Below, in pieces: positions 14,651 to 31,499 of a DNA stretch of 64,000 bases. The stretch lies in assembly GCA_029204225.1 (NCBI GenBank), contig CM055100.1, positions 19,334,341 to 19,398,340 on the forward strand, written 5' to 3'. The notes under the pieces are model-generated. The model did not search any database, was not told the DNA's origin, and saw only the letters and a program-made list of their open reading frames with translations. Positions within the stretch are counted from its first letter, which is position 1. Each line of letters begins with the position of its first letter. The DNA is from Diphasiastrum complanatum. Taxonomy: Eukaryota; Streptophyta; Lycopodiopsida; Lycopodiales; Lycopodiaceae. The position numbers were made by a program, and so were the translations under genes.

Positions 14651-17038
14651 TCAAATCCATGTCCCTGATCTTTGGTTAAAAACGAAACAAACCAACAATC
14701 CAGCCAATGTAGAAAAATCGGCATCTAATTCTAAGAGATACTGATCAAACATGAACCAAAACATAAAAAATAGCTGATGTCCATATAATTACAGTACCCT
14801 ATTTCACATGTGCGAAACCGAAAATAGCAATAAATGATCACTCTACACATAGAATTGCAAGATAACATCATGAGAGTGCACCAATGAGTAGTAGAACCCA
14901 AAGAGAACCATGTATAATGATGGAATGAGAGAGAGAAGATATCTTTCTCCATGAGTTACAACAATATATAGCAGGTCCAAACCCTACTTTGCCACTTGGC
15001 TTTCCCTCCAATATGAAAAACCCTACTATTTTGGGACTAGATTCAATGTACCCAAAGTTCAAATTTGAATCTCTCTCAAACTCGACTACCAACTTTCCCA
15101 CACTTTCAAAAAGCGTTTATTGACTGTATTTTAAACTAATATAACTTCAAAAAGTCTATCTCTAAGTCTAAATGAGTTTTGGCCTCATATTGACAATTTA
15201 CCAAATATGACTAAACTTGTTGAAATCTCTCGAACTCCCTCTTCAACTAGTTTTGGCATAGTTTTGACCATACTACTTTGATCCAACTTTAGAATGATCT
15301 CCATTCTAAGTATAAATCTCCTTTCTAAGGTTCTAAAGTATCTTTCATAATTGATTTAGAGAATAGTGTCCAAATTGGATGCTTCACTATGTCTTACATC
15401 AATTTTACACATCAAGATATAACTAGAACATGAAGAACCAAATAGAATGTGAATGAAATGATTCCTCCATGTTTCAAACTTTGAACTCTCTGAAAAATTA
15501 CAACAACCAAAGCATAAATGTGAATGATCATCCAATGCTTGTTTGTATCCTCCATATTTGTTGGTATACTACAATCTCATTTCTTGTTATTTCTTCTTCT
15601 TCCTCATTTGGAAGGATTTCAATACCCTATTGTCTGTACATTGTAATGTCTACATCATGAGCAACATTGCATGGCTCTAAGTTGCGACTTTTATTGGAAA
15701 AAGTGTCCAAGATAAAATGTATCTAAAGAATTCAAGATATTCACAACATATTACATTTCAAAATACAAAAAGATCTTTGTATATCTGTTGCATAGTAGCT
15801 TATATTAATTTGCATGCTTTTTGAAATTTTTGATAATCCGTCAGTTTGTATTGTGATGAATTCAAACTCTTCTATAAAATCACTAAAAAAGTTGAAAAAT
15901 ATAATGGTTCTTTGTGTTAGTTCGACCATGTTGTGTACTTTTATGGAATGTCGTTCTTGCTTGCCAATGAGATTTCTCCATTTCTTGTGATGACCATATG
16001 CTGATACTTTCACTATTTCTTGCGTCGAATGTTGAATGATGTCGTAATAGGTGTTGCATTTCATAAAAGTGGAATATAAATCAATAGTAGAAGTATCTAA
16101 ATTAGTAGCTCAAAATTGTCTACAATAGTACTACAGATAAATCTTACCATATAATTTGTTATGTGATCTACCATTAGAGGAGTTCTCAATATCAAAAAGA
16201 CCCTTTGTAAAGATACCTTTTTTTTTTTTTAGTTTCGACCGTCACCAGGCCCAATCAAAATGCACAGATTTGAAATCTACGTAACGTGGTTCAAATTAAC
16301 TAAAAAATAAAAATGCAATATTAAAAACTTTGAAATTTGTGTCCGGGCAGCATGGACGTATCCCATTGGTTTCTTCTTCCTACCCAACACGTGCTAATCT
16401 GTCCGATGTCAATAACTCAAGTTAAATTTACTTGACTATGCTGGTTAGTATAGTGAAATTTTCTAACTATAGTAGTTATAGTTATAGAAATATAGTATGT
16501 ACAGTTACATAAAATATGGTATACGCAGTAACTATGACTATGTTGGCATTCACATTAGATTAAATGTGATACAAAGAATTGAAATTAAGTATCATATCAG
16601 AGAGATTTTTGGCGCCCAAGCTTTGAAAATAGCAATGGCAAGGAGACCTAGATCTACAATCGAGTCTGTGATTCTTTACAATGAGAAAGATGAAGCTGAT
16701 AACTAGAAGCCAACAAAATATATGAAGACTCATGGGTATTGCTGCATCCATCATCAAAGGGCAATTTTCGACAAAAGAAAAGAGCAAAATGACTTACAAA
16801 TCTTATTGGAAAGCAAAAATTTTGGAGTTTAAGACTACCCCGGGAGGTCAATCTATATCAGAAGTCTTAGTACAACATGTATATATGCATTCAGAAATCA
16901 AAGTACATGATATCAATCCTCATGATGTAATTGTAAGTATATTAAAACATATGCACTCTACAACAATCATAGGTGATTTTCTTTATTGATGCTCTTCAGA
17001 TTATGATTTAAATGCCTCAACATTGTTTTTTTCTTTTA
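14651..17038. other. No convincing gene; possible lost exons before 17039
   Basis: Short frames only. A plus-strand stretch at 16588-16700 reads GAQALKIAMARRPRSTIESV before a stop and could be an upstream exon of the gene at 17039-19045, but nothing proves it. A poly-T run lies at 16220. Confidence 0.3.
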
Positions 17039-19045
17039 GATTTATATCCATCATGCATAAGTGAATGGGAGCCCGCACAATCACTTGCAGGAATATTATA
17101 CGTGATTCACTCTGATGTTGGAAAGCTGCAATACAGAGGAAGAATGTTGTAAAGCTACCTTTACAAGCTTTACTTCCGGCGCCATCGGCGCCAGCTATGT
17201 CCCCGGCGCCAGCAGCGCCCCTGCTGCTCCCGGCGCCACTGTGACCAGAATCCAGCCGGCGCCAAGTTCCTATGGCTGAAAATCTTTGATCGGTTCTAGC
17301 GAAGTCCAGAGAGCTCAGATCGATGTGCAATCACCTCACACGATCTAGGCATGATTAAAGGAAGCCTGGGGATCAATAAAATCTAGAGAGAGAAAATGAC
17401 TTTCTAGAAAGAGAAAATACTAGAGAGAGAAAAACGTGCTTTACCAGCTTGGGTAGAGTGCTTGGTATGAGGGGGGGGTGCCGAATCACACCAATACTAT
17501 AGGGGAGTGCGGGTTGCGACTCAGGGCGAGCTCCAACCAAGTCTCAGCCTCCCTTGCTGGAATGTTGTCATGGCTCTCGCCTTGGCATGCTAGCGCCCCG
17601 GAGACTAGGGTCGGTCACACACTTGAAATGTAACCTTCTCAGATTTATCAATAAAGTGGGATTTTTCTCAAACTGACTCTGATTACCTTCTGGGTTTCAG
17701 TGTTCGGTAAAAGCGCCAGTTGTAAGGCCGCTTTCAAAATTCTTAACTTGGCACATAGCTGAGGGTCGTATCCCGGGACACCAGCGGTATGCCGTCGGGA
17801 CCATTCGGTCCGTGGCGCCAGCGGTATGCTGTCGAGACCATTTGGTCCAGGAACTGGTTGTTTCCATATCTGTCGCGGCTTGTGGTTCTGAGTGTTCCTT
17901 GCATGAACGTGAATGGGTTAAGCTCTTGGGGAACGGGCTCTAACCTGTCGGCTGAGTTGGATGGCTTGCTTGGGTGGATGTTACCTGTTTATGGCTGTCC
18001 AGTCTGGCGTGGCGCCAGGTTGGCTTCCAGCGCTCGTGACGAAGCTTTCAGTTGGTTAAGTCTGATGTAAGTCAGACCGCTTGCTTGGAATGGATGTTAC
18101 TCGTTTGTAACAAAGCTTCGAGTTGGTTAAGTTTGATGTATGTTGGGCGGCTTGCTTGGAGGGAAGTCACCCACATCGGGACCCCCGATCTGGCATGGCG
18201 CCAGGTTGGATCTCAATGTTGGTCTTCAGAACTTCAAGTTGGTTAAGTCTGATCGTTGTTGGCGAGTTGGCTGCTTGTATGTCAAGTGGGTTCGGATGGC
18301 AAGAGTTGAAGGCTGGGAAGCTAAGTCGTGGTTCCCGGCTCCCTTTGGGATGTCTGCGCTACAAAGAAGTCCAAAGGAACTTGCAGATTGTGGTATCTAT
18401 TTTTATGAATCTTTATATATGCCACAAACAGATGGAAGTTTTGGCAAGCTCGAAGCAATTCCATTGCCTAATTTTCAAAGTGATGAGTGGCCTACTCCTG
18501 ACAGCATTGTTTCTGAATCCTTGAGATGCAAGCTACTCATTGATATTAGAAATGCTATGAAGATAAGCACATGCTCAAAAATTGTTCACCTAAGTTGGTT
18601 TATCTCATTACATATATTTGTTGATTTTTTCTCGAGTGCTAGTGTTCGTAGGACACCAACTTTATTTGTTTGCAAGGATTTATCAGATGAGACTTTGTCC
18701 GATCTCATGGATCAAGGCTGGGATAGTAAAACAAATAATGACATAGAATGCAGGATTAAAAAGTCCTCAATGATATTTCGTTATCATATCGAAAAGCAAA
18801 TGCTCAGTCTCACATTTAGCTACCAGAGATACAAGAAAATTGAAGGTACATGGCTACCATTGGATCAAGACTTTGAACTAAATGGTCACACAAACCGAAT
18901 GGAGATAGGCATTATCTACAATGAGGAATATTTGACTATGGTTGAGGTGGAAGAGCATTGGAAGCTTGATTTTATCAGAACAGAGCTCATGCTATTACAA
19001 ACCAATCTACCAACATATTTCAGATTTATCATCAACGGAAGACTC
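17039..19045 (+). pseudogene. Exon of an unrecognised gene, split by a solo LTR
   Basis: After a good acceptor (TTTTTTCTTTTAG, ending at 17038) one frame reads LYPSCISEWEPAQSLAGIL to VGKLQYRGR at 17144. The solo LTR follows. The same frame resumes at 18369 as SPKELADCGIYFYESLYMPQ and stays open to a donor GTAAGT at 19046. Removing the LTR and one copy of its target duplication restores the frame exactly. The 3' part includes LTFSYQRYKKIEGTWLPLDQ, MEIGIIYNEEYLTMVEVEE and LPTYFRFIINGRL. The last block faintly recalls the S5 region of MORC/GHKL ATPases; I do not regard this as an identification. No further exons were found downstream. Confidence 0.55.
17145..18363 (+). mobile_element. Solo LTR of the 38-43 kb LTR element family, TSD AAGAA
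   Basis: It begins TGTTGTAAAGCTACC and ends GCGCTACA, and is closely similar over its full length to the LTRs at 38360-39567 and 41931-43076. Perfect 5-bp direct repeats AAGAA flank it (17140-17144 and 18364-18368), so it is an LTR element that inserted normally and later lost its interior by LTR-LTR recombination. It contains several GGCGCC palindromes near its start and two diverged tandem copies of a unit reading CCAGCGGTATGC.GTC. Confidence 0.93.
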
Positions 19046-19413
19046 GTAAGTACTTTATGTTTATTGCCATTTCAAAATAGAGCAAAATAATAGAAAATGT
19101 CATCATTTACAATTGCACATTCACTAATATTTGCCATGTCACAGAGGTGAAAAAGACAAGAGCTGATAACATGCTGCAAAGATCTACCTACAACAATCAC
19201 CATTGTGGGAGAACAATAGTTTCAAATAAACTTTAGTAAAAATCTATGTATACACTCTTTCATTCAATAAATGAAAGCCAAGTTGGGCATCAGTACATGT
19301 ATTTTGTGCTCCCAAATTCATAAACTAGAGCAGCATATGATATATCAATGTATATTTTTCTATGAATTCTATACATGTATTTTTGTTCTATGCTATCTAT
19401 ATTTGTTCTGATC

Positions 19414-21167
19414 TTAATTTAGTATAACTACATCATCCTTTGCACCATCATCAATAATGGGAGGCTGAAGCCTTGCCCTAGCCAGTATTCTCAGGATAAT
19501 TTCTTGTCTAAATCTGTACACCTGGCTTGATGTGTACTCAGGAAGTGTAAATTGCAAAATAGAACATTCATGTATTAGTGATGGCCAAAAACATCAACAA
19601 AATAGAAAACTAATCATGATTCCAAAATAATAATAAATAGAATTTATCACCTTAGAAATATCAACATCTTGCTGAAGGTTGAACCACTCAAAAAATCACT
19701 TTGCATTGTATAATGTGTACCACCCACAGCTGAATGAATCATTTTGCTGGGGTGACTGCAAAATAATTCAGCACACAAGAAATCAATTATGAAACAGAAT
19801 GAATTAGAATGAAACAATTACATTAGAATACTGATTTCAAAATGCTATTAAGAAAGACAGAGTTTACCTCCAAACTGACGATCTACCAGTCCACGAAATG
19901 GGGAACATCTGTAGGAATATATTTACTTAGATATGGAAGGTATATATTTACATCCTTCTGCGTATTTCTTGCCGAATTCATCTTGACACAAAAACCTTTA
20001 ATAATATTATGTACAGATCTAAGAGATCAGGTTTAAACTCCAGTGGTCACTGCAAAATAAGATTGAAATTTCTTTAGCTGCAATTCTGAGAACTATTTCC
20101 ATTGACAATGCCAATGTTAATGCATAAAACAACAAGAAGCATTTAATATATCTTACTTAGTATGATAAGGGATGAGTAGATACTTTGTTGCTGGTGTGAA
20201 TCCACTTGTCAGACATTGTGACAATGTGTCATTATTCTTCTTGAAGGCCTGAAGCAGAAAGTTGCTCAGCACTAGCAACTCATTGGATGAATCTCTTGCA
20301 ATGTCATATTGCAAGAGTGTAAGCCCGGACTCTATCACAGGATCACTGATAGAAGCCTGTCTATCTTAAAGATCCAAGCAATCTAAAACTCTAAAATTAA
20401 TACTAAATTCAAGTTCATCTAGTCTAAAACAAAAAGGAGTACCAATTGTATCTATAGCATCGAATATGTCTTTCTCAAATTTAAGATAATCATCCGAATC
20501 TATATATGTATGAAAATTTGGAGGAGGAGGAGGAGGTGGATGTGTAGTATCTACAAGAATTAAAGAGGTATCCAAAACAAATGTAGCTATATTTACAACA
20601 TTATCAACAACAGCGTTATCTACAATGGATTCCGGGTTAGGCTTCACAGAATCTGTGGTGTCTACCCTCCTTACTTTCTTCGGAGCTCTCTTGGGGGCTG
20701 TCTGCTTCCTAGGAATCTTTGTAGGAAGATCAGTCCTATCTAGAAGAGTTGGTCTAGGAGCAGCAGGTTGAGATATGTGTAACCTACAATACCTATCCCT
20801 CATTCTCATCAGGAGCTGAAAATCCTTGGGCATTATGGTGACTCTCTTGGAATGGATTGCAAGCAAAAAAGAATCCTAAAAAAAAAAGGCTAATGTAATC
20901 TTCAGCAGCCTCCAAAAGGCACTGAAGAGCATTGGGTGTGAATCTAACTAGCTGTCCGAGATCATTTCTTGTTATGTTTCGGACAGCACGGTAGAATGGA
21001 GCTCTTGGGATCAACAGAGCTGTTGATCTCTGATACTTGTGTATCTCAGAGAGCCACCTGCTGTAGTTGCATGTTCTATGTCTAGCGGGTGGTGTAATGG
21101 CAACCGCAGGGGCTGAGGATGAGCCAAGAGAGAAGAAGTCCCTCCTTGTCTACTTTCTCCTATCCAT
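19414..21167 (-). pseudogene. Histone H3 fold (CENH3-like) joined to a Ulp1-type SUMO protease, disrupted
   Basis: Four exons are visible on the minus strand: 21167-20157, 20049-19868, 19755-19651 and 19551-19414. Exon 1 starts MDRRK, then TAG, then TRRDFF. From residue 43 it reads HKYQRSTALLIPRAPFYRAV, RNITRND, and NALQCLLEAAEDYISLF, an H3 core with CENH3 traits (LLIP.APF.R.VR.IT and a loop 1 one residue longer than canonical H3). A T10 run at 20878-20887 breaks the frame, after which LLAIHSKRVTIMPKDFQLL completes the H3 fold. The same frame continues through a basic patch and an acidic linker, one TAA (20366), and KYLLIPYHT into exon 2, where DHWSLNLIS gives the Ulp1 catalytic His (20043-20045). 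Exon 3 reads SPQQNDSFSCGWYTLYNAK: oxyanion Gln and catalytic Cys (19726-19728). Exon 4 ends VVILN. The catalytic Asp is not clear. H3s package DNA and C48 proteases cleave SUMO precursors; the combination is inferred from contiguous frame. Confidence 0.72.
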
Positions 21168-21960
21168 GGACGTGTACTATGGGATAGCGGACTTGTGCGT
21201 GACGGTTAGGATGAGCAGGGAGGGATGATAAAGACCTCGCAGAGGACCGATATTTACAGATAGAATGTACGGTTAGTTTTGAAGAAAGACGCACAAGTGC
21301 GATACGGGGAGACACGTAGGCAGATGTATCGGACCTGTGCGCATGGAAGGTGGTAGGAGGAATATTGATTGTGAAGGACGCGCACAAGTGCGATATGAGG
21401 AGCAAAAAAAAAAGTGAAAAAAATTGATCGAAGTTTGTGATTTTATATCGCGGTTCGCACATGCGAAAGAACATTCTATCACACGTGTGGGAGTTGTACA
21501 AACAAATGCAAGAGTGACACATGTCACCCTGTCACATTACACATGTGGGATTTGTATGAGCAAATGCGAGAGCGACATGTGTTGTCGAGCAAATGAATGA
21601 ACACACGACATGTGTCCAAGTGTCATTTCACACGTGTCCAGGTGTCACCTTACACGTGCCAGTGCCTGTAGTCCAATTGAAAGTAGACACGTGTCCTTTG
21701 TCCGTTGACCACACGTGCAAAAATTTAGTATAAATGGCACGAAAACCGATTACTTTTTTACCTTTTACGTTCTCAAAATTCGCGGCATATCGCTCTTGTG
21801 CGCGCGCATTGTTGTCCGTTTGCTTGCAACGATACCTACTTGCGCACACGTGCGATATTTGGTATCTGCCTGTCGTACATATCCCTCTTGTGCGCCATCT
21901 TGATAGTTAGTTTTGTTTCAGTTCTCCCTCGCGCAGAAGTGTGATATTCATGTTACTGCC
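21168..21960. promoter_or_regulatory. Spacer between divergent genes, dense in CACGTG and ACATGT palindromes
   Basis: The 793-bp gap between the histone-Ulp1 start (minus) and the ATG at 21961 (plus) holds six CACGTG sites (21482, 21631, 21653, 21688, 21713, 21847), four ACATGT sites between 21518 and 21612, and several GCACAAGTGCGATA-like words (21285, 21381, similar at 21847 and 21930). CACGTG is the plant G-box bound by bZIP and bHLH factors. The arrangement suggests a bidirectional promoter or the subterminal repeats of a transposon; the sequence does not decide. Confidence 0.5.
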
Positions 21961-22902
21961 ATGGCCTCTTCCTCAGGATTCTCACGAGATTTAGGCTTGA
22001 GTTCATTTCTTAGTGAGTTTGGGATTACTAAAAACCTAAACTACTTCCACAGCCTATTCAGGCCATATCTACATGTTTTCAGGACTGCACAACCAAATTC
22101 TGACGTATTTTATGAACATTATGTTAGATTCAGAGATATACTTAGTAAGTCTGTTTTCTCCATAGATCCACTCCAGTACATGCATTATACTGATATTGTT
22201 CATTTCTTCCCAGCTTTCAGACATAGACTGGATAGAATGTTCACCAAATTGTTTGATCTTTTCAAAAGCAGTTCAATGTGTCCATATTGCAACAAAAAAT
22301 GTCGATTGGTTGAATATCAGAGTGTTTTTGTACTTTTCCTGTTAGTTCAGATCCCAGATGATGAGGAAGTTTCTGTTGTTGACCCTCCTTTTGCATCATC
22401 CTCTATTTAGTCAGCTATTAAGGATATCAGTCACTTTCTTATCAACACTCCTGATAAGGAAAGTGACTTTATTGATGTAAATACTAATGTTCTCCGAGAT
22501 TCTTTTATTGGCCAAAATACATCTGATGATGAATCCAACCCTATAGAGGAGTCAAAATGTCTTTTCAATTTGCCTGTATATTATATTAATGACGATGTAT
22601 ATTTTACTATTGCTGATTTATGTAAATTTTTTGACTATCGTGAAGACGAGGTTCTATGTTTATTATCCGACACAATTTCCGAATTCTCCGACTTTGTAGA
22701 TTTTGAAACAGATGACCTTGTTGCTCGTATTGATTTTGATGATGAGGAGGGACTTATGACCGGTGAAGAATGCCTGACCAAGACTTTATCAAATATAGCT
22801 AAGGATGGGCAAGGCAGACCATCCGATGAAGAATTCACGACATTTCAATCCCAGATGGGCTTCCCTCGTCCATCATTAATGCATTTCACTAGTATGATTT
22901 GA
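21961..22902 (+). pseudogene. Unrecognised ORF divergent from the histone-Ulp1 gene, one internal TAG
   Basis: From ATG 21961 one frame runs 313 codons with a single stop, TAG at 22408-22410, and ends TGA 22900-22902. The N-terminal half reads SSSGFSRDLGLSSFLSEFG, then FHSLFRPYLHVFRTAQPN, and contains a possible metal site CPYCNKKC. The C-terminal half is acidic (NTSDDESNPIEESK, DYREDEVLCLLSDTISEF, DFETDDLVARIDFDDEEG). I recognise no family. It stops just where homology to the unrelated minus-strand gene copy begins (about 22893), so its true 3' end may have been lost. Its head-to-head position suggests that it belongs to the same unit as the histone-Ulp1 gene. Confidence 0.5.
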
Positions 22903-23129
22903 TAGGAAACGACGTGCTTTTGCTCCTCCTATGCTTGGCTTAGTTGGCATGTTCGTATTCTTTCTTGAAAGCGTTTCATCTTTTTGAATTTTGACATGTC
23001 CTTTATGGAGTCCTAGTTTTGATAAAACATATTCTAATCGAGAGATAGCTTCCTTTGCTAATGATGCTAGCTTAGTATTCCAAGCAAAAACTATATGAAG
23101 ATAAATGATCTTTTCTATTAATATAACTT
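22893..23129 (-). pseudogene. Exon of unrecognised gene, copy 2, stranded by copia insertion
   Basis: The minus strand reads IVFAWNTKLASLAKEAISRL, then VLSKLGLHKGHVKIQKDETL and PTKPSIGGAKARRFLSN. The segment at 31700-31510 (minus) carries a clear second version (LSKANLHKDHVKI, then LSIGESTTRKFLPN). The shared run ends at the same point in both. The rest of copy 2 lies at 29593-30780 beyond the copia element, so the gene was split by about 6 kb. Function unknown. Confidence 0.55.
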
Positions 23130-23403
23130 CTGCATGAAGAGTGCAAACATGCACATTTTTTAAGGGGATAGACAGCACAGGATTCCAGTTTGGATCGGCA
23201 TATTCTCTAGTAATTCATGTACTCCCAGTTACATCTTTTGTCATTTTCATGCAGTACAAGCAAGGATGTTTTGATGTAGCACCGTGAGAGACATTATACA
23301 TACATTTCAATGTTTTCAAATCATTTGGTAAGTGTCATTTAACATTGAAGTCTCCAACTCCTGGAACATTGAGAAGTCCTCCATCCATATAATCCTTGAT
23401 AAG

Positions 23404-23674
23404 TTAGAATTAGAGTTAGAATCACTATGTGATTGTAAGTGGGTCCAGTCAGTGGATAAGGATCAGTTGGTCTCGCCACGAGGCAAGTCGACGGGACACG
23501 CATCCCGCCAACGACAACCTGGGTCATGCATGGGTTGCCTGAGTGAACAACTATATGTACAATGTAATTTCATTTTGAGAAATACAGTTGCTATGTGAGC
23601 TTGCTGAGGAGAGTGATTTTCTGTCTGTGTTACTGTGTAGCATGATCTGTGTTCTTGTGCAAAGCAAATTCTAA
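23404..23674 (+). repeat. 5' LTR of copia element
   Basis: 271 bp, starts TTAGAATTAGAGTTAG and ends GCAAATTCTAA, followed after three bases by the tRNA-iMet PBS. Confidence 0.88.
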
Positions 23675-24976
23675 GTTGGTATCAGAGCCGTATAGGGAGT
23701 GTACACAGTACAGTGTCGCCGTTGAAGAGAGCTTCGGGAGAACTGTCTTCTGAGAGTTCGGGGTTTTACGGCGGGTTGAAGACGGAAAGAGAAGCACTGG
23801 TGCACGGTTTCTAATTTATAGAGGCTTGCTAAGCTCAGCAGAGGGATTATTAGCCTGTGCATAGCATCAGACAGGGAAAAATTTGGTGAAAAATTGACAA
23901 TTTCGAAGCCAGCTGAAAATTAAAACCGGACTTGGGGTTACGGTTTTTATACGTAACTGGTGATTTCTTCACTGTTTGTGCACCGTTTTGGATGTCGTAA
24001 GGATAGGAAGGAAGCTAATCACACTGTCAATCAGCCATGGAGATTTGTCAGAGATTTGTCTCCAGACAGTTAACCTAGCAGATTTGCGGTAAAAGGTGAA
24101 AAAGCCACTTTGTCAAGTTGAGCTAAAATCACCATTTCTCCATGGAATTTCCTGTTTGAATATTCTATAGTCATGGATTCAGTAGGGCAACCCTGCTCCA
24201 GGCCTCAGATCGTGCTCAAAACGATCCACATGAGAGCTTGATCCGATCTTTTTGAGGGAAGGGAGGCGTGGCCGCAGGCAGGGAAGTCACGGGCAGTTCG
24301 CGCACCCAACACGATGAAGAACTTAGTGTATTGAAGTTCTTAGCATATGCAGGAGTTTGGTTCGATGCCCAGATGTACTTTGAACCTGTAGATGAGGTGT
24401 CAAGTGAATCAACGGTCCAGAATCTGTGATGGGAGAAAAATTTGAACTACAAGATTTGGTTCAGCCATTGGATGAGCTTTAAACAGGGTCTTGAAGAATT
24501 GAAGTGAATTCTGGCCTTCAACTTCATTAAAAATTTTCATACTGAAAATTGAATTGGGTCCCTTCACAAGTGAAGAGTGAAGTTTCTTCAAAGTGAAGAA
24601 ACAGTTCAAAAGCTAGAAAAGTCCATATTTTTGGGTCCTTTGCCCGTTTTGACCCAAACGAAAGGCTATAACCTCCAAACGAAGGGCACCCAGACTGTAC
24701 CTGCAAGTACGGTACAACAAAACAGAGCGGTTACAGCAGAGAAAGTGTTCGGAGTACGCCAGAAGTAGTTTCACCATTCCACTGGGCACGTTGTTGGGAA
24801 TTGACGACTGAGTGCATTTCAGAAGGTGACGCCGATTTGGCTTTCAAATTGGTGGAAAAGCGGCGAGTGGCCTGGTAAGAAAAAAAAGTGCAGGTCATTA
24901 TTTTCAACTTCTGACATCACTGTTGGCCTCGACATACTATTCTTAGCCTAAGGCAGAAGTTTTAAGCAGTTTTGTG

Positions 24977-27900
24977 ATGGCAAACATGGGAGAGTCCATT
25001 TTGAGTGAAAGTAGCAAATTGGACAGGATTTCCAACTATGCAGTGTGGAAATTCAAAATGAAAAACATACTGATGGAGAAAGATGTGCGGGAAGTCGTCA
25101 CAGGTGATGAGAGAAGGCCGCCAAATGAAGCAGACATCAAAGTGTTCGACAAAAAGATGAGGAAAGCTTTGACCTTCATTAACTTGTCAGTGAAGGATCA
25201 TATCATTACCCACATTTGTGATGCTATTACACCCAGACATGCATGGGATGTGCTAAAGGAGCAGTTCGAGATGTCCAATTCGTCAAGAATCATGTTTTTG
25301 AAGTCAAAGTTGAATAGTGCCCGCATGGAACAAGGAGAGCACATTCAGACGTACATGACCAGAATCAAGACAATGAGAGATGAACTGCATTCTATTGGAG
25401 AATGCATACGTGATGTGGAGCTGGTGCATAATGCATTATGTGGCATTGCAGAACCCTATCAGATGTTTGTGAGCGGAATAGCATCAAGAGAAAGATTGCC
25501 AGCCTTTGACGAGCTCACAGGAATCTTGATGCAGGAAGAGCAACGACGAGAAATGGTGAAAGCTAGACGTCAAAATATTGATGATCAGGCACTTGCAACA
25601 CGCCAAAAACAAGGCAAGGGCAAGGGCAAGAAGAAGACTAAACAGCAATTTGCCAAGTCTCAGGAGGATGAGGGATCTTCCAGCAAAACTAAGAAGAAAG
25701 ACAAGTGCTTCCATTGTGGTAAAAAGGGCCACTGGAAAAGTAAATGTCGCAAATTCCTGGCGGAACAAAACAAGGGAAAACCAAAACAAGTAGGTAACCT
25801 TGTCGATGAGGGTGAAACTGAAGACTCTAGTATCTTCATATCTGCATTGTCATCTGATCAAGACGATCAAGCATGGTATATTGACTCAGGAGCCACAAGA
25901 TACATGACAGGTAACAAGAACTGGTTCAATAGTTTGAAGGCATTGGATAATGGAACATCTGTTTCACAAGCAAATGGTGAGGTGTGCATGATCAAGGGGA
26001 TAGGCACAGTTTCAATCCAACTGCCTGATGGCATAAGCAGGATGATCAGGGAGGTACTTTACGTACCAGGTTTAAAGAAAAAACTACTTTCTGTTGGAGT
26101 CATTACTGATCAAAAGTTGAAAGTAGAATTCGCCCATGATCGTTGCTTTGTGAAGGATGCGAACCAAAAGTTCAAAGTTATTGCGAATGGAGTAAGAGAG
26201 AACAATACAAAATTGTACAGGTTGAATGCCACAATCAAGGGGCAACATGGACTTGTATCATCCATTCCTTCACAAACTGAGTTGTGGCACAAGAGACTTG
26301 GTCACTTGAACTTGGGAAGCCTCAGTTTGATGAGAAAATTGGAGATGGTAACAGGACTGCCTACAATAGACGATCACTTGAAATCGATGTGCGAATCTTG
26401 TATATATGGGAAGCAGCATCGAGAGAAGTTCAATAAAGGGGGTGTTGCAAGAGCAAAGAACATCTTGGATTTAATCCACACAGATTTATACAGGCCCACG
26501 AGGACCATGTCCTTAGGAAAAGCCTTCCATTTCATGACCTTTATTGATGATATGTCACGTAAGACGTGGATCTACTTCTTGAAGAAGAAATCAGATGCTT
26601 TTGATAACTTCAAGAACTTCAAAAACTTGGTCGAAAATCAGACAGGTAAGAAGATCAAAGTCCTAAGATCAGATAGTGGAGGTGAGTATAAGTCTAATGA
26701 CTTCAATGATCTTTGTGATCAATGTGGGATTAAAAAACAATTTATGCAAGCTCATACTCTTGCTCTCAATGGTGTAGCTGAGCGCAAAAATCGTACGATT
26801 GTGGAAAGTGCCAGATCTATGCTAGCTGAGATAAAATTACCAAAAGATTTTTGGTCAGAAGCATGTAGCATGGCAGTCTATCTTCAAAATAGAAGTCCTA
26901 CCATTGCCATACCAAAAATTACACATGAGGAAGCATTCAAAAAGAAGAAGCCAAAGGTGAACCACTTGCAAATCTTTGGATGTAAGGCCTTTGTACATAT
27001 TCCTAAGGAAGAAAGATGTAAACTCGATGTAAAAGCTATCAAGTGCATATTCCTAGGATATGATGATCGCGTGAAGGGCTATAGATGTTTTGATCCAGTC
27101 GAAAACAAAATCCATATAGGTCGAGATGTTATCTTTGATGAATCCAAGATGTATGAAGACGAAGATGATGAGAAGATAGACACATCCAGTAGGAAAAATG
27201 GCATAGTGAGGATACCACCTGATGATGATCCATTCATTGACCTTCCGAGTGATGAACATGAGGATACATCTCAAGATACTACTACTCAACCTCAAGAAAT
27301 AGGTTGGAGAGGTAGGGATAAACCTCTTGGTGCAAGAAGGATTGAAATTGTAGGTGACAAACGCAAGGAGAAGGATGTACTATGGGATACATTTTTACCA
27401 GGAAGCCGATCATCTGACAGAAAGCTCCCTAAGTGGCGTGAGAGATTGATGGAGAGCCGCGATATAGATGACTTTTCAGGATCATCTAACCAGGGAGAGC
27501 TACAAACATCAACAAGAGAGAAGATACTACCTGAAAGGTATGAAGCAAATTATGCTCTGTTATCCAGCATTATTCAAAGCAAAGAACCTTCGACTTATGG
27601 TGAAGCGAAGGATGATGACATTTGGATCAAAGCCATGGGAGGAGAGATGGAGTCAATTGCTAAGCATAGGACATGGGACTTAGTAGAACCACTAGTTGGC
27701 AAGAAACCCATTGGTTGCAAATGGGTATATAGAACTAAGTACCATGCAGATGGAAGCATAACAAAGCACAAAGCAAGATTGGTAATCAAAGGGTACGCAC
27801 AAAATAAAGGCATTGACTATGAGGAGACCTTTGCGTCGGTGTGTAAGTGGAATACTCTATGTCTACTTATTGCTTTAGCTTCACATTTTGGTTGGCCTTT

Positions 27901-29116
27901 GTATCAGATGGATGTGAAATCTGCTTTTCTAAATGGTGAGTTAGAAGAAGAAGTGTTCATGGATCAACCTGAAGGCTTTGTAACGAAAGGATAGGAAAAT
28001 AAAGTATGTCGCTTGAAGAAAGCGCTTTATGGTCTTAAACAAGCACCACGTGCGTGGTATAGCAGGATTGATGCCTACTTTTGTTCAAAGGGGATGGTGA
28101 GAACACATTCTGATCCAAATCTATATGTCTTATGCTTTGATGGTATGGTTGCTTTGATTGCTCTTTATGTTGATGACTTGATTATTACGGGAAATAATCA
28201 AGAGATGATAGACATAATCAAGAAAGACCTCATGAAACAATTTGAGATGACGGATCTCAGCTTGATGCATTACTGCCTTGGAGTGGAAGTGTGGCAAAAA
28301 GGACATGAAGTGGGTTTAACACAGGTCAAATATGTCAAAGAGTTACTACACAGGTTTAGGTTACAGGATTGCAAACCAGTAAACACTCCTATTGAACCAG
28401 GTAAAAAGCTTTCTAAGCTTGATGAATCACAGTCATTTGATACTACGCTATATAGACAGTTAGTAGGGAGCTTGATTTACCTTACCACAACTAGACCAGA
28501 TATATGCTATGCTGTTGGCATTGTAAGTCAGTTTATGGCAGCACCTACAGAAACGCATTGGAAAGCAGCTAAACGCATTTTGCGTTATGTGAAAGGCACA
28601 TCAGAGTATGGCTTGATTTACAGGAAGCATGATGGTTTACCTGAGTTGTGTGGCTATGTGGATGCGGACTGGGGAGGTGACTATGATGATCGTAGATCCA
28701 CCACAGGATATATATTCCAGTTTTGTGGTAATTGCTTTTCCTGGTCTAGTAAGAAGCAAAGTACAATTGCTCTTTCCACCACAAAAACAGAGTATAAGGC
28801 AATGTGTAGTGCTGCACAAGAAGCTATATGGTTGAGACAAATCTTGGAAGAGATTGGCATGAAGCAGAAAAATCCCACAACTTTATATAGCGACAGTCAA
28901 AGTGGCATTCAGCTAGCAAAGAATCCAGTGTTCCATGCGAGAACTAAACACATTGAGATTCAATATCACTTCATACATGAAAGACTACTAAGTCGTGAAA
29001 TTCATGTTGTTCATTGTAGCACAGAAGAACAACTAGCTGATATTTTCACTAAGCCACTTACTGGAGAAAAGTTTGATAAGTTTAGATCAAAACTTTCTGT
29101 ATTTAAAGTTTGTTGA
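24977..29116 (+). pseudogene. Copia Gag-Pol, open except for one TAG
   Basis: The frame from ATG 24977 to TGA 29114-29116 is 1,380 codons including stops, with a single internal stop at codon 1006 (TAG 27992-27994). Order along the protein: Gag; CCHC knuckle CFHCGKKGHWKSKC from about residue 244; protease WYIDSGATRYMT with Asp 303; GAG-pre-integrase ELWHKRLGHLNLGSL; integrase with D503, D566 and E602, a canonical D-D35-E spacing; RT with DVKSAFLNGELEEEVFM before the stop and ALYGLKQAPRAWYSRID after it, YVDD from residue 1064; RNase H with DADWGGDYDDRRSTTGY and the end block EEQLADIFTKPL. The TAG probably replaced CAG. Domain order protease-integrase-RT-RNase H fixes it as copia. Confidence 0.93.
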
Positions 29117-29171
29117 CTTTAAAGCTATGTATATGACTGTATAAATAGTGACTCTACTTTAAGGGAGAGAG

Positions 29172-29442
29172 TTAGAATTAAAGTTAGAATCACTGTGTGA
29201 CTGTAAGTGGGTCCTGTCAGTGGATAAGGATCAGTTGGTCTCGCCACGAGGCAAGTCGACGGGACATGCGTCCCGCCAACGACAATCTGGTTCATGCATG
29301 GGTTGCCTGAGTGAACAATTATATGTACAGTGTAATTTCATTTTGAGAAATACAGTTGCTATGTGAGCTTGCTGAGGAGAGTGATTTTCTGCCTGTGTTA
29401 CTGTGTAGCATGATCTGTGTTCCTGTGCAAAGCAAATTCTAA
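29172..29442 (+). repeat. 3' LTR of copia element
   Basis: 271 bp and about 95-96% identical to the 5' LTR by hand count; preceded by a purine tract. Confidence 0.88.
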
Positions 29443-29592
29443 GTTGGTGATCCTAGGATAAGATATCCTTGAGAATATCCATGATAATATATCATGATCC
29501 TCTGTCAACACATGTCCAAAGAATTAATCAGACTTAGTTTACAATGTATTAATACTATTCAATGAATGTAATGTAATAATGAGGCTAGTTAC

Positions 29593-30780
29593 TTGAAACG
29601 CTGCCAACCACCATATGTCATTTTTAGACTGGACACTGAATCTGAAATCTTCTTGGTTCTCTGTTTGTGATAGAGCACCATTCATGAGAGTTATACTAAC
29701 CCTCTCCATCTTCTGCCCTTTCACAATTTCTGACTCATCTATCTTAAGTACTATGATTATTTTGTCATTCACCTTTTCATAGGTTATATCATAGAATGTG
29801 CAACAAGTAATTTAGATCAACAAATAAATTGTTTGATGAATTATAGAATATCGATTTTCCATCAGTTTCATACACCTCCTCAATATGAAATGAAGTTCCA
29901 GTGATCTTATGCATACCTATGTTTAATGTATCCCTCTCTTTCCTATTGTTCATCATGATACGCTCAGTGGATTTGCAATTCAATATTGTGCCCAATGACA
30001 TTCCTAGTGAAGCATTGTCTTTAATATTCCGAGGAGCTACTAATGCAGATCTGCAAAAAAAATAGATAGTTAACAGAATATCACCATAGTTGAAATTAAA
30101 TCCAAATGTCATTGAAAAACTTACAAAAATCAGAATATGCTTACTTGAATGCATAGATCCTTCTATTTCGATAACCTCCTTTTGAAAGCGTTTGAATATC
30201 CTTGCAACTTTGTCGCTTTCGCTTCTTACTTTCAGCCTTCTTCTTTGCCAAATCCACATCCTTCAATAATTGTACGTTTTCAATACGAATAGACTGTAAG
30301 ACTGATTGCATTTGCTCTAGTTTTGATTTGATATCGATTGTTATCTTCTGTAATGATTCATTATTTTTTTTAAATTGTTCATTTTCTTCTAACGTCTTTT
30401 GGAGATGACAATCTCTATTCTGACAATAAGAGGATATCCAAATCAACTCACCTTCTAAAAAGTGAATTTTATTCATATAAATTTGTTTTCCATGGTTTTG
30501 CAATCTTTCCCAATATCCTAGTAATCCACTATGCCCATTGCATATCCATGTAACTAAATGAGTTATTGAAGTGAATGTGGGATGTGTCAAAGTGCTTGGA
30601 TCTTGTGGATATAATGTTCCATCTATCCACAAATCCAAGTTTTTTTTCCCTTCTGCCCTGTAACGAGAACGATCCTTAGCAGATATTTGAATTCCTTTGC
30701 CTCCTCTTCTCTGCAAAGGTGCCAAATCAATAGAGATATCCACATGTAGATGATACAATGTCATCATCAAAATAATAATA
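29593..30780 (-). pseudogene. Unrecognised coiled-coil gene, copy 2 (two exons)
   Basis: Two minus-strand exons with good splice signals. The first (about 30780-30145, donor GTAAGC) reads LYHLHVDISIDLAPLQRRGG, KKNLDLWIDGTLYPQDP and SGLLGYWERLQNHGKQIYM, then a coiled coil (TLEENEQFKKNNESLQKI onward) ending in a lysine/arginine-rich patch SKKRKRQ. The second (30050-29593, acceptor TTTTTTGCAG, donor GTAACT) reads SALVAPRNIKDNASLGMSLG to NDIWWLAAF, with a frame break near 29815. The coiled coil and basic patch suggest a nuclear protein; beyond that I cannot assign function. The next exon lies beyond the copia element at 22893-23129. Confidence 0.5.
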
Positions 30781-31499
30781 GAGTAATCAGTTGCATCAAA
30801 GTAATATGACCAAATTCTATGAAGCAAAACAAAATACTCATCTTTGATTATATTATATACTATGTACGATCAATCCAATCTCCATGCTTGTATGCTTGAT
30901 TCAAATTTGGAAATGTTGCTCATTTTTTCATTCCAATAGGTAGTTGGCGCTCATATTTCCATTCTCGTGGAAGGAATGCATATGTAAACATTTTTCAATT
31001 TTTCCTGATTCGAATTTGGGGATGGCGGTCATATTCTAGATCCAGTGAAAATATTGGCCTTTTCGTAACCAATGGAGAGAATATTTTTGAATTTAGTCAA
31101 GTTATATTGCGAACTGTTAACAATTCTTAACTGTGACTATAGACACTGTGGTTAGATCATTGGGAGTTGGGGAGGCCTTGGGAGTGGTGTGGGCAAGCAA
31201 ATAAACAATATTGCTTTTTTTATTTTGATATTTTTCTATATCCTACATGGCATTCCTTAAAGGGTCTTTTTGATATTAAGAACTCCTCTGATGACCACAT
31301 GCACTTTGAACTGCATCAACATATTCACTGGTTGTTTTTTGTATCATTTGCACATCAACATTTCAAAATTGATCTTTTCTTGAATATTTCACCATGTTGT
31401 CAAGTTTTTTCAAACTTCCGCTTTGAGTAGCCAAGTAGAACCTTGTTTCTCAAAATCTTGAGTTGTAGCTATTATCTCTTTCCAAATTGAGTATTGAAT

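Follow-up and report, generated by a model that had tools for sequence, protein, structure and literature searches.

The element and its genes

The window is the whole stretch of DNA analysed here, 64,000 nucleotides from Diphasiastrum complanatum. When it is compared with three other copies (A, B and C) it is found to hold a transposable element, TE-I, at 16172-31293 with 35-bp inverted ends. One terminal repeat (16172-16206, plus strand) has the outer end CATTAGAGGAGTTCTCAATATCAAAAAGACCCTTT, which is the same in B, C, L048 and L049. The other (31259-31293, minus strand) is 94% complementary. The gene set in the orientation of the window is Y (+), H3-Ulp1 (-), X (+) and T (-). Gene Y belongs to a family without a name. 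Its main exon is an open reading frame whose protein is also found in L049, with a relative in TE-II (below). In the window this exon is split into 17012-17143 and 18317-19090 (plus strand) by a ~1.17-kb insertion at 17144-18316 that is absent from A, B and C. Against copy A, about 55 bp of the element is found on both sides of the insertion. Gene X (MASSSGF..., 21961-22899, plus strand) runs divergently from H3-Ulp1, matches no named family, and has its 3' part deleted in the window copy. The putative transposase gene T lies on the minus strand, with its N-terminal part at 29444-30869 and a second part at 22876-23414; a stretch of the gene downstream of this is deleted. Between them sits a Copia LTR retrotransposon (23414-29444, plus strand) whose repeats are 96% alike over 279 nt. 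It has long open frames of 1015 and 373 aa. With T interrupted by Copia, Y interrupted as well, and portions of both T and X missing, we infer that the window copy cannot be autonomous. TE-I is about 9.4 kb long: L049, which has both ends, is of this size and is 94% identical to B over 9.4 kb, and L048 is an 8.1-kb copy with deletions. In copy C (L020+L021) part of the element, C 15668-19998, is inverted relative to the rest.

The 30-nt end sequence occurs at 2,433 sites in the genome (1184 + 1249) when up to 3 mismatches are allowed, and its reversed control at none (0 + 0). The flanks of ten further ends all differ, in nine cases up to CATTAG and in one up to a changed CTAG. TE-I has the inverted repeats and the dispersed copies with unrelated flanks expected of a cut-and-paste DNA transposon. 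A sequence-only reading of this DNA had offered capture of both domains by a transposon as an alternative. This alternative is right: the gene lies inside an inverted-repeat element present in hundreds of copies. Candidate target-site duplications in the four two-ended elements are 3 bp in L049 and 2 bp in the window, with none in L048 or TE-II. Mates were sought for the ten ends and one was found, with an irregular end. Among the places listed on contig C1, 15 of 86 exact termini fall in 64.9-66.7 Mb and 28 of 86 beyond 95 Mb. Two pairs within these clusters share their flanks (99.8% and 94%), so the clusters are at least partly segmental duplications and terminus counts overstate independent insertions. 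Centromere targeting was rejected as the cause of the clustering on the same grounds.

In T we find a Cys-x2-Cys and conserved Asp motifs, which would be expected of a DDE transposase. The motifs LKLDES and AGDLK are conserved between families, and copy B has a candidate Glu in QGMEKSH. We take the protein to recall RAG- and CMC-like transposases. Neither Pfam nor PDB nor NCBIfam, a collection built for bacteria and archaea, has a match to a 485-aa part of T from L048 that stops short of both ends of T. Several known groups were considered and rejected. CACTA/EnSpm does not fit the CATTAG ends, and the T part has no Pfam match at E<=10. A MULE of the Kaonashi kind is rejected since the T part is without any Pfam match and so without a match to a MULE transposase. 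Crypton is rejected since the T, X and Y parts are without any Pfam match, and so without one to a tyrosine recombinase. A hAT would be known by its transposase or by a C-terminal dimerisation domain; the Pfam search gave no match to the 485-aa part, which ends before the C-terminus of T. A viral origin was rejected because single-sequence patterns from the fusion and the T part found no relative in viral_contigs, a search that reaches close relatives only.

The H3-Ulp1 gene in the window

Aligned with other copies, the H3-Ulp1 gene occupies 21167-19414 on the minus strand in four exons. Exon 1 (20157-21167) encodes an H3-like tail and fold, a basic linker and the start of the C48 domain. Exon 2 (19868-20049) has the catalytic His (DHWSL) and an MNS motif, exon 3 (19651-19755) has the Gln and Cys motif SPQQNDSFSCGW, and exon 4 (19414-19551) encodes the C-terminus, which ends in VILN. 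The sequence-only reading had located the motifs well. The first H3-like half is within the ORF 20793-21149 and the LLAIHSKRVTIMPKD half is in another frame, and KYLLIPYHT, DHWSLNLIS and the SPQQNDSFSCGWYTLY exon are all where it put them. It had also assigned phase 2 to intron 1, which is borne out in open copies, where exon 1 is 1010 nt (L012, L027, L040, L044).

The window copy is dead. It was described as damaged, and the damage is real: a TAG at codon 6 and a frame break in a T run near 20880, both in exon 1, further stops, and a mutated last acceptor before exon 4 that reads AA where AG is expected. PF00125 matches the two H3 halves separately with E 1.6e-12 and 5.9e-5, the second below the Pfam cut-off. 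The short protease exons of this copy, searched singly against PF02902, gave no match.

Other copies and the case for one gene

A search of the 1.74-Gb genome with the 235-aa H3 part and linker gave at least 150 scored matches at 77-90% identity. Every one of the 150 matches listed starts no later than residue 21 and reaches residue 228 or beyond. A number of them are stop-free. Some are on unplaced contigs, which look like duplicates. We aligned 42 rows: the window, the 12 best-scoring loci, 26 loci that are stop-free in the H3+linker match, and 3 longer stretches, of which A and B repeat loci already in the sample. Removing duplicate or near-identical rows (L006, L008, L011, A and B) leaves 37 distinct ones. 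It must be noted that all 37 were chosen via the H3 part and that the sample favours open copies. Even in such a sample, 31 of the 37 rows have one or more stops when the spliced frame is read, counting frame breaks. Codon 6 is Gln in 26 rows, TAG in 7 (the window, L015, L025, L026, L030, L045 and C), His in 2, Arg in 1 and a gap in 1. The identical change from CAG to TAG in 7 of 37 rows may reflect shared ancestry, or else decay of a methylated CHG site.

Six copies (L012, L027, L040, L043, L044 and L046) have zero internal stops and GT/AG at all six intron ends. L012 and L043 are without the catalytic Cys and L027 is without the final stop. The protein is 479 aa long in L040 and L044. The suggestion that the window copy is a dead member of a family with live ones thus holds to the extent that copies without stops exist. 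When spliced, L027 and L046 match Histone (PF00125) with E 1.4e-24 and 4.9e-26 and Peptidase_C48 (PF02902) with E 7.6e-9 and 4.9e-10, all above the Pfam cut-offs. PF00125 scores are 87-99 bits in L015, L027 and L046 against a cut-off of 26.4, and PF02902 scores in TE-I are 36-43 bits against 20.7. Since both families are above cut-off on the same undamaged spliced copies, the fusion is not due to chance. The two domains do form the single gene that was proposed from the window, and decay did not create the fusion. Most of both domains is kept in 30 of the 37 rows, and the other 7 are without most of C48. A profile search of the genome with PF02902 alone gave 3 places, matching exon by exon.

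Related families

A search of the genome with the Arabidopsis CENH3 core led to a second family, TE-II, and to other H3-like repeats. It gave 13 matches of at least 92 bits; the three that were read are canonical host H3. TE-II has at least 150 scored matches at 72-100% identity. Its protease exons, SKHWSV and then QSSQQDDAFSCGWY, follow in order behind the histone. All six TE-II loci that were read have C48 sequence behind the histone; in L081 it amounts to the first 14 residues. Aligned with each other, the fusion proteins of TE-I and TE-II are colinear at 30% identity (E 3e-59) over a span that starts at residue 1 and reaches the C-terminal part; the TE-II query took its last exon from a different TE-II copy. 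In a single genomic stretch (L083+L085), tblastn matches TE-I residues 1-369 (E 2.6e-35) and 399-462 (E 8.5e-8) at 28-31%. PF00125 scores 77 bits in TE-II, and the C48 part scores 18.2 and 17.6 bits, below the 20.7 cut-off of PF02902.

The TE-II element in L083+L085 is about 9.1 kb, provided that its right end is correct. The left end is CATTAGAGGAGTT; between it and the right end there are 7 differences in 28 places. It carries the same four genes, with T 50-58%, X 26-44% and Y 40% identical to TE-I. H3-Ulp1 is inverted between TE-I (L049) and TE-II (L083+L085), and the orientation of Y, X and T is constant. L083 and L084 (C1:5467600 and C1:63912446) have identical histone parts and are 98.6% identical over the 10 kb compared, so they look like a segmental duplication and not two insertions.

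TE-III is one locus (L082). Its histone scores 90 bits with PF00125 and joins the TE histone group in the tree (88/85), and the linker is shared as well (E 3e-8). The 2 kb of this locus that were read gave no protease. A further repeat, TE-IV (L076, L077, L080, L090 and L091; for example L091 4549-5730), has at least 150 scored matches at 77-99% identity. A long Gln/Pro-rich tail precedes its H3-like fold (PF00125 E 7e-29), and its left end CCATTAGGGCCCTTTTTGG resembles the CATTAG ends of TE-I. An upstream ORF that looks BAH-like by eye has no Pfam match. The possibility raised at the outset was that the H3 and Ulp1 parts are really separate genes. In this genome both are largely kept within one gene in the 30 TE-I rows, and C48 sequence stands behind the histone in the 6 TE-II loci read. 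The other 7 TE-I rows keep little of C48, and tblastn of five TE-IV loci found none.

The histone part

The best PDB matches of the histone part are H3 (E 4e-19). The fold shares about 50% identity with canonical H3, and as much with CENH3. The tail reads MDRRKQTRR in many TE-I copies, MARTKQTAR in TE-II L078 and L079, and MARMKQTTR in L074. We take MARTKQTAR to be the N-terminus of H3 itself, and the same string is in the host copy L070. The tail keeps K4 and R8, and K9 is absent. R83, R116, V117, T118, H113, D123, L126 and R129 of H3 are kept in four TE-I/II/III rows; the TE-II copy L079 has Tyr at position 113. These residues presumably have roles in the nucleosome as DNA contacts or at the H3-H3' interface. 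Their conservation makes it plausible that the fusion protein enters nucleosomes. Position 63, which we assume to be on the DNA side, is Pro in the TE rows compared.

CENH3 is recognised by a loop 1 longer than that of H3 and by Trp at H3 position 84. The excess in loop 1 is 1 residue in TE-I, 4 in TE-II and 0 in TE-III, and position 84 is Trp in TE-II and TE-III and Phe in TE-I. The TE-II histone scores 78.9 bits with cnp1 versus 78.4 with an H3.3. In a tree that includes only two CENH3 rows, TE-I, TE-II and TE-III form one group with support 88/85, which is below the tool's star. The tree leaves the place of this group relative to H3 and CENH3 unsettled. An origin from CENH3, based on the Pro63, Trp84 and longer TE-II loop in common, was not adopted because the tree gives no decision. 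The sequence-only reading had connected the fusion to CENH3 deposition in particular. That connection is not supported, given the equal identity to H3 and CENH3 and the undecided origin.

The protease part

A PDB search with a profile built from C48 domains, three of TE-I and one of TE-II, found Ulp1-type SUMO proteases (6dg4, E 4e-4; 1euv, 0.008). The catalytic His is kept in 32 of the 37 TE-I rows (2 gaps) and Gln403 in 29 (6 gaps). The catalytic Cys is kept in 21, with 7 gaps and 9 changes, so 9 of 30 readable rows are without it. His, Gln and Cys are all retained in L079 of TE-II. An Asn of the MNS motif is near the place of the catalytic Asp in 31 of 37 rows (5 gaps). The third catalytic residue is probably Asn rather than Asp, with the alignment to Ulp1 uncertain here. 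L009, L012 and L022 have a common change from Cys to Phe and cluster in the TE-I tree, which implies that a lineage with a dead protease spread or was duplicated. Other copies could have helped it in trans.

Selection

We estimated dN/dS by Fitch parsimony on 36 TE-I rows, leaving out L030 as an outlier, with a mutation spectrum derived from 351 intron changes. Internal branches have 197 nonsynonymous and 209 synonymous changes and 7 stops (dN/dS ~0.36). By part, the internal counts (N/S) are 23/58 in the H3 fold (0.16), 45/59 in C48 (0.31), 11/13 in the tail (0.33), 108/74 in the linker (0.51) and 10/5 in the C-terminus (0.78). Terminal branches have 809 nonsynonymous and 413 synonymous changes, with dN/dS 0.74, and stops make up 39 of the 1261 terminal coding changes. 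The terminal ratios are 0.78 in the H3 fold, 0.76 in C48, 0.93 in the tail, 0.70 in the linker and 0.51 in the C-terminus, a short part that reverses the trend. Since the sample favours open copies, fewer stops were counted and dN/dS may be lowered.

The internal ratios of 0.16 and 0.31 imply that both the H3 fold and the peptidase were selected while the elements lived. The contrast between internal and terminal branches in these two parts, along with the fusion in TE-II, is our strongest reason to think that the protein serves the element. The changed Cys in 9 of 30 readable rows is a counterweight.

What the fusion may do

We regard it as nearly certain that this is a gene of a CATTAG-ended inverted-repeat transposon, that it joins an H3-like histone (MDRRKQTRR tail, full fold and basic linker) in frame to a C48 (Ulp1) peptidase, and that the window holds a dead copy of it. 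Its function is a more tentative matter. The histone fold would pair with H4, or an H3 chaperone would bind the fold. The fusion protein would then be placed in or near nucleosomes, holding the peptidase on chromatin. There the peptidase could strip SUMO, or a modifier related to it, off silencing proteins or off the transposition complex of the element. The outcome would be an element that stays expressible and mobile. We tentatively prefer this mechanism, in which a deSUMOylase tethered to chromatin would lift silencing or help transposition. Some VANDAL elements, which have anti-silencing genes, have Ulp1 in the VANC gene according to the available text of one review (PMC13317346). We use these genes and the TET/JBP genes of transposons as analogies for the deSUMOylase role.

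Identity and mechanism taken together have a probability of about 0.5 in our estimate. In favour are both domains above cut-off, near-complete elements, a colinear fusion with the same four genes in TE-I and TE-II, the internal versus terminal dN/dS, the conserved H3 residues, and a peptidase His and Gln that are mostly kept. Against are the loss of Cys in 9 of 30 rows, an apparent Asn in place of Asp, the TE-II C48 below cut-off, the absence of K9, and Pro63.

One can imagine instead that the fusion serves transposition itself. The histone fold would dock the complex on nucleosomes and so choose targets, and the peptidase would mature or deSUMOylate the transposase or repair factors. The gene accompanies T, X and Y in both families, and in Ginger1 the transposase is itself joined to an Ulp1 or OTU domain (available text of PMC2836005). 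However, the fusion is a gene separate from T and its orientation differs between TE-I and TE-II. The flanks of the ten ends also all differ, and the C1 terminus clusters are at least partly segmental duplications. We think this rather unlikely, and rank it after a chromatin-tethered deSUMOylase directed against silencing.

A decoy is less probable by some distance. The histone part would be a dominant-negative H3 that poisons host chromatin assembly, and the peptidase would free it from the linker. A full H3 fold with a tail and a long linker would suit this, as would the faster evolution of the linker (internal dN/dS 0.51), but the cleavage site is purely hypothetical and the strong constraint on the fold suits either use. 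Very improbable is passive cargo, in which H3 and Ulp1 fragments were picked up by Pack-type transduplication and drift neutrally. The stops in 31 of 37 rows (frame breaks included, in a sample that favours open copies), the 39 stops among 1261 terminal coding changes and the lost Cys would all be expected of such cargo. An internal dN/dS of 0.36 over all parts, and of 0.16 within the H3 fold, would not, and neither would a fusion common to two families at 30% identity. Finally, a host H3-Ulp1 gene unrelated to mobile DNA would explain six copies with an open frame and intact splice sites, but it is refuted for the copies read here by the high copy number and by their place in inverted-repeat elements beside other conserved genes.

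More tentative than the chromatin-tethered deSUMOylase is the broader reading that these elements are an undescribed superfamily of plant DNA transposons. Such a superfamily would encode a permanent fusion of its own H3 variant with a deSUMOylating protease, put into chromatin to undo silencing, or to mark or target the element's DNA, and selection would have kept this through deep divergence.

Comparison with known systems

No H3-Ulp1 fusion was found in the open-licence PMC literature, a body of text that mostly excludes subscription papers and preprints. Ulp1-carrying MULEs of the Kaonashi/KIU group were reportedly treated in a study cited as Hoen 2006. As far as the available texts go, the nearest precedents carry one half each: H3L in a fungal hAT, and Ulp1/C48 in MULE, Ginger1 and Crypton elements. 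The hAT of Pyrenophora tritici-repentis is likewise an inverted-repeat DNA transposon with a divergent H3-like gene (available text of PMC3538342). It has been amplified, and next to H3L it has an ORF of which little is known in function. Its authors group H3L with neither H3 nor CenH3, and count 26 H3L genes in the reference genome. It differs in having a hAT transposase, and that text mentions no protease; TE-I and TE-II have a putative transposase without a family match, many more matches, two divergent families and the H3-C48 fusion.

The Kaonashi/KIU MULEs of flowering plants are also plant DNA transposons with an Ulp1-domain gene, tied to escape from silencing. They have a MULE transposase whereas our T part has no Pfam match, and the word histone is absent from the review text available (PMC13317346). 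Ginger1 of animals likewise has Ulp1 fused to another domain encoded by the transposon; in the available text of PMC2836005 Ulp1 or OTU is fused to an integrase-like transposase, whereas in TE-I and TE-II C48 is fused to an H3 fold. CryptonF and CryptonS are mobile elements that encode a C48 peptidase too, but they are tyrosine recombinase elements, and the text available makes no mention of a histone (PMC3212892). The fungal TET/JBP transposons are, by the portions of PMC12730594 available, several lineages with an enzyme of chromatin or DNA marks proposed to counter silencing. That enzyme is a dioxygenase acting on DNA methylation, and not a histone-protease fusion as in TE-I and TE-II.

Transposons are known for single captured chromatin genes. 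Here a histone and an enzyme like a SUMO protease are one protein under purifying selection, whose gene has the same three neighbours in both of two divergent families. It is also a naturally evolved H3-enzyme fusion, and it comes with a putative transposase unmatched in the libraries searched. The fusion permits a direct test of whether elements escape silencing by making nucleosomes of their own or by altering the SUMO state of chromatin at one site.
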